This document shows, in pieces, positions 7,909 through 38,926 of a stretch of 39,541 nt of DNA. The notes under the pieces are model-generated. The model had not been told where the DNA came from and searched no databases. It saw only the letters and a program-made list of their open reading frames with translations. Source of the DNA: a virus; IMG/VR virus record IMGVR_UViG_3300042430_000389, positions 1 to 39,541 of that record; one strand, 5' to 3'. The translations under genes were made by a program, and so were the position numbers. The number at the start of each line of letters is the position of its first letter. The stretch's first letter is position 1.

Positions 7909-8802
7909 TTGAAAAGAAAAATCCAAGTAGGGATTGTTTCTTTTATTGTAGGTTCGTTAATGGTCTTTACACCAACCAATGCATTTGCTGAACAGGCTCT
8001 TGCTGAGGTTACGTGTGCTAAAGGTGACGGAACGGAACAAACATTTTCTATTGGCTGGGATAACAGCAATAGTTTCTTTGACGGTAAGGGCGAGATACCT
8101 CGCTTATTCTGTGAAGGTGGCTACGCACAACCTTACAATTTCTATGTAAGGGATAACCTACCTTTAGATTCTTCACTGCGCTGGTACAACGGCATAGTTC
8201 CTGTCTTAGAACCTGTGCCAAGTCCTAGCCCTGAGCCAGTCGTAAGCGTTGAACCAACTCTGGACCCAGAGCCAACGCCAATACCTGAACCTACTCAAAT
8301 AGAATCACCCTCTCCAGAACCTACAGTAGAACCTAGTCCAACTCCAGAGCCTACGGTTATCCCTTCGGATACTCCAACTCCAACAGTTGAACCTACGATG
8401 GAACCAAGTCCCACCCCTGTAGTAACGCCTAGCGTTATACCCGATCCAGAGCCAACTGAAACCACTCAAAATTTAGAGCCAAGTTTAGAGCCAGTTGTAC
8501 CTGATCCTTCCCCTAGTATAAGTCCCACCCCGGAATTAGTCCCTGAGGAAACCCCAGAACCACAGCCTACAATAGCAATTCCTGCCCCTGTAAGCCCCGT
8601 AGAGACATTTTTAGCCGAGATTGATATCCAACTACCAACCTACCTAGAAAATGTACCCGGTGCCATACAGATTGCAGCCGCAGCGGAAGCGATTATGACT
8701 ATTGGAAGCGACATGACACCTGAAGAGAGAGAAGAATCTCAGGGTGTTGTAGTGGCTGCAGTTATTGTAGGTCAGTTAGCACAAGTCAGGAGACTAAAGT
8801 AA
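7909..8802 (+). CDS. Secreted Pro/Glu/Thr-rich protein, 297 aa
   Basis: A TTG start gives a clear signal peptide (MKRKIQVGIVSFIVGSLMVF, cleavage near AFA-EQA). Residues about 30-100 look folded, with two Cys (C38 and the C in RLFCEGG). A long P-S-P-E-P-T spacer follows (about 100-225), then a conserved-looking C-terminal region (VETFLAEIDIQLPTYLENVP ... VIVGQLAQVRRLK). Secreted Pro-rich proteins beside lysis genes may span the cell wall, but no specific role can be assigned. The start has only weak Shine-Dalgarno support. Confidence 0.65.
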   Translation: MKRKIQVGIVSFIVGSLMVFTPTNAFAEQALAEVTCAKGDGTEQTFSIGWDNSNSFFDGKGEIPRLFCEGGYAQPYNFYVRDNLPLDSSLRWYNGIVPVLEPVPSPSPEPVVSVEPTLDPEPTPIPEPTQIESPSPEPTVEPSPTPEPTVIPSDTPTPTVEPTMEPSPTPVVTPSVIPDPEPTETTQNLEPSLEPVVPDPSPSISPTPELVPEETPEPQPTIAIPAPVSPVETFLAEIDIQLPTYLENVPGAIQIAAAAEAIMTIGSDMTPEEREESQGVVVAAVIVGQLAQVRRLK

Positions 8803-11166: not shown

Positions 11167-11630
11167 TTCTTTGTATCCTTACTACTCTCCCATGAACCAT
11201 CGAGAACCATAATTCCAATTAGTCCATAGTTGCTAATGTCTATGAATGTATCTCGTAACGATTCATAGTTCGCATCCCTACCAGTTTCAATTAGGTTTGC
11301 TAGTCTTGCTACCTTATCGTGCAGACGTACAGCCAGACCATTGATTGCACCACCGGGTGCACGTGAAATGTTTTCTGAACCGTAGTCTTCGTGCTTCTTG
11401 ATTAGTATCTCTACCGCCTCATCAGAGGCAGACATAACATCTAGATAGAACGCATCTTGACTTGTGATTAGTTCTTTACTGGTGGGACGGATACCGTAAG
11501 TATCACTTCCCCACGTATCACCTTTGCCTCGGTTACCTTCATACCTATATTGGTTATCAGCCGCACCGCTGTAGTAACCGTGCTCTCCAAATCCATAGGT
11601 ATCAAACCATTCATCCTTCATCTTACTCAT
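11163..11630 (-). CDS. Nmad1/DUF1599-like protein, 155 aa
   Basis: The C-terminal half (EILIKKHEDYGSENISRAPGGAINGLAVRLHDKVARLANLIETG ... YESLRDTFIDISNYGLIGIMVL) matches the nucleotide modification associated domain 1 pattern as I recall it. It is all-helical with conserved acidic residues suggesting a MazG-like metal site. The N-terminal 50 residues are Gly/Tyr-rich and may be disordered. A role in nucleotide pools or modified DNA is possible. The gene is coupled to the next gene by ATGA. Confidence 0.65.
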   Translation of the reverse strand: MSKMKDEWFDTYGFGEHGYYSGAADNQYRYEGNRGKGDTWGSDTYGIRPTSKELITSQDAFYLDVMSASDEAVEILIKKHEDYGSENISRAPGGAINGLAVRLHDKVARLANLIETGRDANYESLRDTFIDISNYGLIGIMVLDGSWESSKDTKK

Positions 11631-12244
11631 ACTGCTACCTTCTCCCTAAAGAATTGGTGTCCGTGTTTAATGTACATACTGTTAACATCTTCGCCATCGT
11701 TCATTGGTATTACAATTGTTCCTTGGTTTTCCTTCGCAATCTTCTTCGCAAAATCCGAACCAGGCTGATCCCCGTCAGCAAATACATAGATAGTCTGGAA
11801 GTCTTGGAGGAGTAACGAGTAGTGTCTCTTCCACGAGTTAGCCCCAGGAACGCCAATTGCCGGGATACCACACTTCTGGTGTAATGTGATCGTGTCGATC
11901 TCTCCTTCGCATACCGCAATGAAATCACCTGCCTGTTGAATTGCTTGTACGTTGTATAGTCTTGTCTCTACCCCTGGCATACCCATATACTTTGGTTCAC
12001 TACCATCAATAGATCGGAATCGTATGTCTACTACACCGGTCTCTGTGATGTATGGTATTGCTAGTCTGCCAGCGAATTGCTCATGCCCTAGAAGAGGCTC
12101 CTCTACGTACCCTAGGCGGGCTGTAACCGCGTCTTGCAAGGTTATGCCCCTCGTTGCGAGATACGCTTCTGCTCTTTGCACCGCTTGCCCGTAGTGTAGT
12201 GCTGCTCTGTCCAGTAATTCCTTCTGCGATCTTGACTGCTTCAC
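11627..12244 (-). CDS. Primase Toprim subunit (DnaG-like), 205 aa
   Basis: The protein carries a Toprim domain: CEGEIDTITL (112-121) and VFADGDQPG (154-162), with a GVPGANSW loop between. This is the catalytic half of DnaG-type primase. The GTG start at 12244 is preceded by AAGGAG at nine bases, lying inside the zinc-finger gene, so separate initiation is well supported. The two genes overlap by 164 bases. The start region (LLDRAALHYGQAVQRAEAYLATRGI) is the normal linker found in intact primases. Confidence 0.85.
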   Translation of the reverse strand: MKQSRSQKELLDRAALHYGQAVQRAEAYLATRGITLQDAVTARLGYVEEPLLGHEQFAGRLAIPYITETGVVDIRFRSIDGSEPKYMGMPGVETRLYNVQAIQQAGDFIAVCEGEIDTITLHQKCGIPAIGVPGANSWKRHYSLLLQDFQTIYVFADGDQPGSDFAKKIAKENQGTIVIPMNDGEDVNSMYIKHGHQFFREKVAV

Positions 12245-12455
12245 GAAATCCTACTCCTTCTTTCTCCATAATTATGCTATACGTATCACCTTTTACCCCA
12301 CATCCGAAGCAGTTAAACGCATTTTCCTCAACATTTACTGTTGCTGATGCGTGACCATCATCGTGGAATGGGCAACGTAACTTAACCCAACCGTACTGTT
12401 CTCTTACTGTCGCACCGTAATGCTCCAGTATTGGCTGTATACTGTGCTTCTCCAC
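12081..12455 (-). CDS. Primase zinc-finger (CHC2) subunit, 124 aa
   Basis: The CHC2 zinc finger is clear: C28-P-F-H31 and C49-F-G-C52, with the typical CPFHDDGHASATVN and FNCFGCGVKGD. Residues about 63-84 (MEKEGVGFREAVKIAEGITGQ) continue the DnaG pattern, after which the frame's tail (ASGAKSRSVSRNEG...) reads as low-quality sequence on top of the Toprim gene. So this ORF either ends as a separate zinc-finger polypeptide or once fused to Toprim through a frameshift. It starts at a GTG overlapping the resolvase stop (TAGTG). Confidence 0.75.
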   Translation of the reverse strand: MEKHSIQPILEHYGATVREQYGWVKLRCPFHDDGHASATVNVEENAFNCFGCGVKGDTYSIIMEKEGVGFREAVKIAEGITGQSSTTLRASGAKSRSVSRNEGHNLARRGYSPPRVRRGASSRA

Positions 12456-13704: not shown

Positions 13705-14154
13705 TTAGATCGAATTCCATTCTGGGTCTTTCTTAGTTACCCATTGTGGAGTACATTGATCTGGCGTACCCTTAGGTGTTGGACAGAAGTAGCCCTTCCA
13801 TTCACCCTTAGCACCGCTACCCTTGCGAGTTACCATAGTACCGTGTGAACAGGAACGAGTCCCTGCTACCAGTGGTGCTGCTACAGCCTGTGCTGGTGGT
13901 GGTACTGGTGCAAACGTAGTCTCTTGTACTACTGTCCCACCTAGCGAAGCAACCACTGTATCGATTGCGCTGTTACTGGGAGGCACTGGTTGTGTACCAG
14001 TCAACACCTGTTCCAGTAAAGCAATAACATCTCCTGCACCCTGTGCAATGAGTGCTTCAATGTTACGCAGTAGTTCCTCGGCACTATCACCACGTGCTGT
14101 GACGATCGTACCCTTAGTAGTCTTAACATTGACTACATAGTTTTTCTCTGTCAT
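13705..14154 (-). CDS. Conserved actinophage protein with C-terminal zinc-ribbon-like segment, 149 aa
   Basis: The N-terminal part is beta-rich (NYVVNVKTTKGTIVTARGDSAEELLRNIEAL). The middle is Pro/Ala/Gly-rich and flexible. The C-terminus contains C-S-H-G and C-P-T...C-T-P (SCSHGTMVTRKGSGAKGEWKGYFCP and TPDQCTPQW), which could bind zinc or nucleic acid. Its neighbours (helicase and exonuclease) suggest a DNA-metabolism role such as single-strand DNA binding. It overlaps the exonuclease gene by one base. Confidence 0.7.
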   Translation of the reverse strand: MTEKNYVVNVKTTKGTIVTARGDSAEELLRNIEALIAQGAGDVIALLEQVLTGTQPVPPSNSAIDTVVASLGGTVVQETTFAPVPPPAQAVAAPLVAGTRSCSHGTMVTRKGSGAKGEWKGYFCPTPKGTPDQCTPQWVTKKDPEWNSI

Positions 14155-14801
14155 TACTTACCTTCCTTGTTCCATTCACAATCTTTCTTAAATCCACACA
14201 TCTTGCAATGACTGTAGTTAGGGATGAACAGTGCTTCTTTTCTTGCCCTGTCAAAGTCACCAACTATTTTCTCAATCATCTCTGTCTTGTAAAAGTCTAA
14301 CTCAACCAACGGTGAAGTTACATTCTTACGTGACATCCAGTATGCACCGTATTGTGGTCGCACACCAAATGTTTTCTCCATTCCCACAGCATACAATGCT
14401 AACTGTAGATCTGATGATGGTGTATACATACCCGTTTTTAGGTCAACTATAACCAACTCACCATCAGGAGTTACCATTACTCGGTCGATACCCATCTGTA
14501 CCGGTACTCCACCCATATCTACCATCATAGATATTTCAATGGCAGGCTTGCCATCAGGTGTAGTCCACACACTCCAGCCTAGTTCACCTGTCCGGAACTT
14601 GACCCAAGAGTCCAGCATATTTCTACCCTCTGAGAACCACCAGTTGGCATCTTCACCCTCTGGGTTAGCCTTGGAGGTACGTCCTGCCTTCCTCCACAAT
14701 GCCTCTTCCTGCCCCGTAGAAGCACCGTGAGCGGTTTTCACCCTATCCCACGTATCTTTCCACACCTCGTCCAGAAAATCTGGTTGTAGAGATTTAATCA
14801 T
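14154..14801 (-). CDS. Cas4/AddB-like exonuclease, C-terminal subunit, 215 aa
   Basis: The RecB/Cas4-type PD-(D/E)XK core is present: D106 in GIDRVMV, and D120-x-K122 in VIVDLKTG, followed by DLQLALYA. The C-terminus has C199-x2-C202-x5-C208 (HCKMCGFKKDCEW), as in iron-sulfur Cas4/AddB nucleases. In those proteins a fourth Cys lies near the N-terminus; here it is C25 of the separate upstream gene. The ATG overlaps that gene by four bases (ATGA) and has AGGAGG at seven-base spacing, so it can be initiated on its own. Confidence 0.85.
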   Translation of the reverse strand: MIKSLQPDFLDEVWKDTWDRVKTAHGASTGQEEALWRKAGRTSKANPEGEDANWWFSEGRNMLDSWVKFRTGELGWSVWTTPDGKPAIEISMMVDMGGVPVQMGIDRVMVTPDGELVIVDLKTGMYTPSSDLQLALYAVGMEKTFGVRPQYGAYWMSRKNVTSPLVELDFYKTEMIEKIVGDFDRARKEALFIPNYSHCKMCGFKKDCEWNKEGK

Positions 14802-15004
14802 TTACCTACCTCCTCGTAGAATGCCTTGTCAAAGGCTTCAGTAGCCTCGTGAACAGATGATCCACCGACCAACCACCACGAACCATCCTCCGGTATCTGA
14901 ACCATTCTGGATAGGTAGTACTTCCACCCACAATCTAACCAAGTGGTTAGTTGTGAGTATGATACGTGACTAGGTAAGTCATACCCATTTATCTTTACAG
15001 ACAC
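14798..15004 (-). CDS. Cas4/AddB-like exonuclease, N-terminal subunit, 68 aa
   Basis: The sequence (HVSYSQLTTWLDCGWKYYLSR, GGSSVHEATEAFDKAFYEEVGK) matches the N-terminal part of RecB/Cas4-type nucleases: a helical start with the first cluster cysteine (C25) and the histidine-containing GGSxxHE motif. It is normally fused to the core that here begins four bases upstream of its stop (ATGA). A GTG start at 15004 has AAGGA at about eight bases. It probably assembles with the downstream product. Confidence 0.8.
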   Translation of the reverse strand: MSVKINGYDLPSHVSYSQLTTWLDCGWKYYLSRMVQIPEDGSWWLVGGSSVHEATEAFDKAFYEEVGK

Positions 15005-15043
15005 TATGTGTCCTTCCTGTTGTTGTTTTTTCTAAAACTATAG

Positions 15044-36831: not shown

Positions 36832-38925
<2,094 letters not shown>

Positions 38926-38926
<1 letters not shown>

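Follow-up and report, generated by a model that had tools for sequence, protein, structure and literature searches.

Introduction

Cas4 proteins have a PD-(D/E)XK nuclease core and four cysteines, one N-terminal and three C-terminal, whose cluster has been termed a staple essential for structure; zinc can also occupy the Cys4 sites of this fold (PMC3466216). In the Cas4, AddB and AdnA relatives we examined, the four cysteines and the active site all lie on one chain. A single polypeptide is usual, if not strictly defining, among the PDDEXK_1/Cas4-like relatives examined, whereas the phage clade described here uses two genes. We found no description of a split or two-subunit Cas4 or related nuclease in the openly accessible literature, the coverage of which is incomplete.

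The locus lies in a viral stretch of 39,541 nt (the window; positions 1 to 39,541 of IMG/VR record IMGVR_UViG_3300042430_000389) and consists of a gene for a small protein, N, followed by a gene for a larger one, C. The actinophage Cas4-family exonucleases of phrog_1870, such as Propionibacterium phage Kubed gp36, Thermobifida phage P318 orf15 and Mycobacterium phage Miramae gp67, have the same domain, motifs, four cysteines and replication-module context as the window pair, but each is one gene and one chain, with ~26-32% identity to the window C. Gene 76 of the cluster A phages is also an actinophage Cas4-family exonuclease (PMC5712189). Homologues of C were found at below 60% identity in phages of Propionibacterium, Mycobacterium, Rhodococcus, Gordonia and Thermobifida, and in all such members examined (annotated records and a scan with alignment A4) the nuclease is a single gene. 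A further single-gene exonuclease copy, P318-like and 92% identical, was seen in contig L185 (348-1303); the matched span is not one frame in full, while the domain-length ORF is intact.

The best PDB sequence match is mycobacterial AdnAB, in which the nuclease is the C-terminal domain of the helicase-nuclease AdnA; the window pair has no fused helicase. ACE1, an Argonaute-associated Cas4 family protein (9iab, 9iac), is a stand-alone nuclease of similar length but, unlike the window pair, is a single chain and linked to Argonaute. The CRISPR Cas4 proteins (SSO0001, Pcal_0546 and type I-C Cas4) share the PD-(D/E)XK core and the one-plus-three cysteine layout with the window pair and differ from it in being single chains that act in CRISPR adaptation. 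C alone scores 28 bits against TIGR00372 (CRISPR-associated Cas4), below the equivalog cut-off of 65, and general Pfam and Rfam scans, as distinct from a dedicated CRISPR search, found no cas1 or cas2 among the neighbours and no CRISPR repeat in the window.

Two overlapping genes span one predicted nuclease

An earlier note on this DNA had proposed an iron-sulfur exonuclease split between two coupled genes. The two ORFs on which it relied, their overlap and the ribosome-binding site ahead of the second were all confirmed, on the minus strand, as was the placement of one cysteine on the 68-aa product and three on the 215-aa product (Table 1). The two proteins match complementary parts of the Pfam PDDEXK_1 profile (PF12705), N covering positions 1-50 and C positions 70-246. 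Plain concatenation of N and C scored 68 bits over profile positions 1-246/247, compared with 40 bits for C alone and ~21.5 bits for N alone, the last slightly below the cut-off of 22 bits. The phage exonuclease family phrog_1870 is divided in the same manner, with N matching positions 11-67 (8.3e-10) and C positions 78-288 (4.6e-42); N also matches phrog_69. A scan of the whole virus record found no other PDDEXK_1 gene. Judged by these profile matches, N and C jointly span one PDDEXK_1/Cas4-type nuclease.

Table 1. Features of the N/C locus in the window, and in-frame TAG codons at the junctions of three related loci.
Feature	Position	Strand	Remarks
Gene N (small subunit), 68 aa	14798..15004	-	GTG start, TGA stop included; matches PDDEXK_1, phrog_1870, phrog_69
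Gene C (large subunit), 215 aa	14154..14801	-	ATG start, stop included; matches PDDEXK_1, phrog_1870
AGGAAGG Shine-Dalgarno of gene N	15012..15018	-	7 nt 5' of the GTG of N
AGGAGG Shine-Dalgarno of gene C	14809..14814	-	7 nt 5' of the ATG of C
ATGA stop-start overlap of N and C	14798..14801	-	
Cys25 codon of N, putative first cluster ligand	14930..14932	-	present in 95/95 distinct N+C pairs
His52 codon of N, within motif I (GxxxHxxxE), presumed metal ligand of the active site	14849..14851	-	95/95
Asp106 codon of C, motif II, GIDRV	14484..14486	-	95/95
Asp120-Leu121-Lys122 codons of C, motif III, VDLKTG	14436..14444	-	D120 and K122 in 95/95
Cys199 codon of C	14205..14207	-	absent only where a contig ends within the locus (two loci)
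Cys202 codon of C	14196..14198	-	kept in all untruncated loci
Cys208 codon of C	14178..14180	-	kept in all untruncated loci
Gene after C, 149 aa, L5/D29 gp49-like (PF25690)	13705..14154	-	1-nt overlap with the end of C (TAATG)
Single in-frame TAG between N and C, locus L073	2249-2251		TTG start of C directly after
Single in-frame TAG between N and C, locus L081	2941-2943		TTG start of C directly after
Single in-frame TAG between N and C, locus L180	3205-3207		TTG start of C directly after

Distribution of the divided organisation

The queries for scans of IMG/VR were the C protein and alignments of N and of C, and the best 80 loci per scan were taken. Among the matches listed, N and C were separate ORFs in 166 of 166 distinct N+C DNA pairs, down to ~40% identity. 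Tallies that include duplicates came to at least 251 split and at least 85 single-gene loci. The genus Planktophila belongs to the Nanopelagicales, an order abundant in fresh water. The cultured Planktophila phages F5 (OX376641) and E7 (OX376640), described in PMC10202952, both carry the split, the F5 type at 40% identity to the window over C, and the main text of that paper does not mention their divided nuclease. The earlier note had allowed that homologues might be single genes, with the split confined to this assembly; every clade member with enough upstream sequence, E7 and F5 included, turned out to be divided, and single genes were found only in other phage groups. By this comparison, the split is real, old and fixed across a large group of probably freshwater phages.

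In a tree of 62 representatives, split and single-gene forms stood apart except for the single-gene Kubed protein, which was nested on a very long branch. Grouping the split forms in one clade was not rejected (p-AU 0.28), yet this is no proof of one origin; the topology may reflect a single origin of the split, or a re-fusion. A host origin was also considered; the matches in a search of genome contigs were all weak, and most were to long RecB/AddAB-like proteins.

Signature residues, selection and predicted structure

The four-cysteine pattern of the family, one N-terminal and three C-terminal, is present in the window pair, yet it is spread over two chains. The active-site H, D, (D/E)xK and QxxxY motifs are likewise all present, the histidine on N and the others on C, where the QxxxY motif (Q133, Y137) is conserved. 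His52, which the earlier note did not mention, lies within GGSSVHEATE and is the conserved motif-I histidine of RecB/Cas4 proteins. Across 95 distinct N+C pairs, Cys25, His52 and the D, D, K and Q residues were invariant. Because the catalytic histidine is also on the small subunit, the active site would be shared between the chains, as the Cys4 site would. The finding is thus stronger than the earlier note had it: as read from these alignments, the organisation is fixed and the active site is divided as well as the cluster site. Purifying selection acts on both N and C (dN/dS about 0.1), with values of ~0-0.14 for N and 0.06-0.16 for C when the window was compared with 11 relatives.

For structure prediction we folded the relative L081 in place of the window pair, reading its junction TAG as Gln to obtain a natural N-C chain, which aligns end to end with single-gene proteins. 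Alignments that mixed C-only and full-length rows (A5, A7 and A8) were misaligned and were left out; A9 and A6 were kept. The AF2 model of the read-through chain reached pLDDT 85.7 and pTM 0.84. Its only stretch below pLDDT 50, residues 63-67, lies between helices 43-61 and 70-89 and adjoins the split at residue 69, which places the split in a predicted flexible inter-helix loop. When mapped on the single-gene relatives from Mycobacterium, Propionibacterium and Thermobifida phages, the split point again lies in an inter-helix loop. In structural alignments with VIA-align, the L081 chain matched AdnA best (Z 16.4; 225 residues, 3.4 A), followed by ACE1 (15.4), AddB (15.1), Dna2 (12.9) and Cas4 I-C (11.8), each over nearly the whole model; Cas4 proteins ranged from 8.2 to 11.8. 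The Cas4/AddB-type assignment in the earlier note stands as to the AddB/AdnA/Cas4 fold, but among solved structures the L081 chain comes nearest to AdnA and ACE1, with AddB itself behind them.

These data bear on whether C alone might be the enzyme, with N a remnant or a protein of some other role. D106, D120, K122 and three of the cysteines are all on C, the core of the window C forms in an AF2 model of C by itself, and other genes can lie between N and C. Against this, N retains exactly the cysteine and the histidine that complete the sites of C in all 95 pairs, N and C have equally low dN/dS, and among the matches listed every locus with C but without N is cut by a contig end. Furthermore, the cysteine segment of C (194-204) falls below pLDDT 50 when C is folded alone and is at 87-88 in the joined L081 chain, the two runs having used different alignments; the models would fit a requirement for N in the ordering of this segment. 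We regard C acting alone as unlikely, and favour a nuclease assembled from N and C.

Junctions between N and C

The junction varies widely across the clade. N and C overlap by 20, 14, 11, 8, 4 or 1 nt or abut directly as TAG-TTG, and among the 166 distinct pairs in the matches listed, C is in frame 1 relative to N in 72, in frame 2 in 65 and in frame 0 in 4. The remaining 25 pairs are separated by gaps of 72-955 nt, mostly occupied by another gene. Inserted genes were recognised in nearly all gaps examined: a zinc-ribbon-like ORF of 35/36 aa (L032, L041), ORFs of 26 aa (L083), 48 aa (L097), 58 aa (L064), 62-73 aa (L075, L134, L145, L247), about 105 aa (L219, L243), 129-134 aa (L087, L089, L100, L101) and 164-171 aa (L050, L088, L095), and two genes in L208. 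These are ordinary ORFs of unrelated small genes, many with stop-start overlaps of their own at the start or end, and small phage genes seem to be tolerated as insertions at the junction. By eye, the inserts of L050 and L095 resemble PD-(D/E)XK proteins; the L050 insert had no Pfam match. About 64 of the 166 junctions have no simple Shine-Dalgarno core ahead of C, so the strength of coupling probably varies.

Programmed recoding (frameshifting, stop read-through or ribosome hopping) would yield one full-length chain from such loci, and is suggested by L073, L074, L081 and L180, where the halves share one frame with one TAG between them. However, a 260-aa gene has TAG as its stop in L081 and TAA in its L180 orthologue, indicating that TAG is an ordinary stop in that group. 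The same-frame loci with TAG directly followed by TTG (L073, L081, L180) offer a natural control of the divided layout. The spread of relative frames and the gapped pairs also argue against recoding, as does the retention of a stop and a start wherever the frame is shifted. In the window itself, a TAA in the frame of C stands directly ahead of its ATG, and no RNA structure was detected at the junction (z -0.01). Recoding is thus very improbable as an account of the split. Together, the occurrence of all three frames, the gapped pairs, the use of TAG as a stop and the lack of Rfam matches in the window and seven insert-bearing loci exclude an indel or assembly error, a programmed frameshift shared by all loci, and an intron of a known family.

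That the window contig carries an indel from sequencing or assembly, or a pseudogene in decay, is suggested only by the unusual organisation itself and is scarcely credible, since two cultured phages share the split with many independent contigs, a finding that refutes the frame-restoring indel limited to this assembly that the earlier note had considered, and since both parts are under purifying selection with their signature residues kept. Joining of the halves after expression, by a split intron in the RNA or a split intein in the protein, could be imagined from the sequence lying between them in some loci, but has next to nothing to recommend it given that the inserts are ordinary overlapping ORFs, that no Rfam match was found in the window or in 7 insert-bearing loci, and that N and C terminate with no added intein-like sequence and together match the single-gene protein along its whole length.

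Proposed mechanism and significance

Taken together, we propose that N and C are co-translated subunits that assemble into one Cas4/AdnA-type PD-(D/E)XK nuclease with a shared active site and Cys4 site, a reading to which we give a probability of about 0.8. Ribosomes would end N at its TGA and (re)initiate immediately at the overlapping ATG of C, aided by the AGGAGG, such that both chains would be produced together from one mRNA. N is predicted to supply the first helices, Cys25 and the catalytic His52, while C would supply the core sheet, D106, D120/K122 and the other three cysteines. The chains would then join through the helices flanking the split, completing a metal-dependent active site and the Cys4 staple. 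Since neither chain holds the whole active site or the whole cluster site, the two probably must join to work. By analogy with the family, the Cys4 site probably holds Fe-S, though the possibility of zinc in such sites makes this less than certain, and we infer catalysis by His/Asp/Asp/Lys. The role is probably DNA end or ssDNA processing in phage replication and recombination, because the replication operon that contains N and C also encodes a DnaB-like ATPase and a primase. In its fullest form, the proposal is of an obligate two-subunit Cas4-type nuclease whose Fe-S and catalytic metal sites are completed only across the interface, long fixed in a large actinophage clade with the junction as a tolerated insertion site; this we consider reasonably likely.

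A fixed natural split with the first cysteine and the catalytic histidine on one subunit would allow direct tests of cluster assembly and of how activity is licensed, and would also let gating of activity by subunit supply be examined. The presence of the split in cultured Planktophila phages (Nanopelagicales) adds to its interest. The organisation is also an annotation hazard, as it can appear as a hypothetical 68-aa ORF beside a seemingly truncated nuclease.

Genome context

The overlap at the end of C indicates that the coupled gene chain continues past C into the L5/D29 gp49-like gene (Table 1), the product of which is a possible functional partner of the nuclease. In Kubed and P318 the module runs exonuclease, helicase, Holliday-junction resolvase, primase, and the window has a module of the same kind with matching gene order. 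The DnaG-type primase of the window is also spread over two overlapping genes (11627-12455, minus strand), with the CHC2 zinc finger at 12081-12455 and Toprim at 11627-12244; the Kubed primase is divided likewise (gp31/gp30).

The window also carries a WhiB gene. WhiB is found in cultured Nanopelagicales phages (PMC10202952), and as the window shares with these phages both WhiB and a nuclease of the split group, the host of its virus is likely actinobacterial and probably freshwater. Two further genes on the plus strand encode repeat-rich proteins: a 589-aa protein with long collagen-like G-P-T repeats (37157-38926), probably a tail fibre or surface protein, and a secreted-looking 297-aa protein with a long Pro/Glu/Thr/Ser-rich repeat region (7909-8802).
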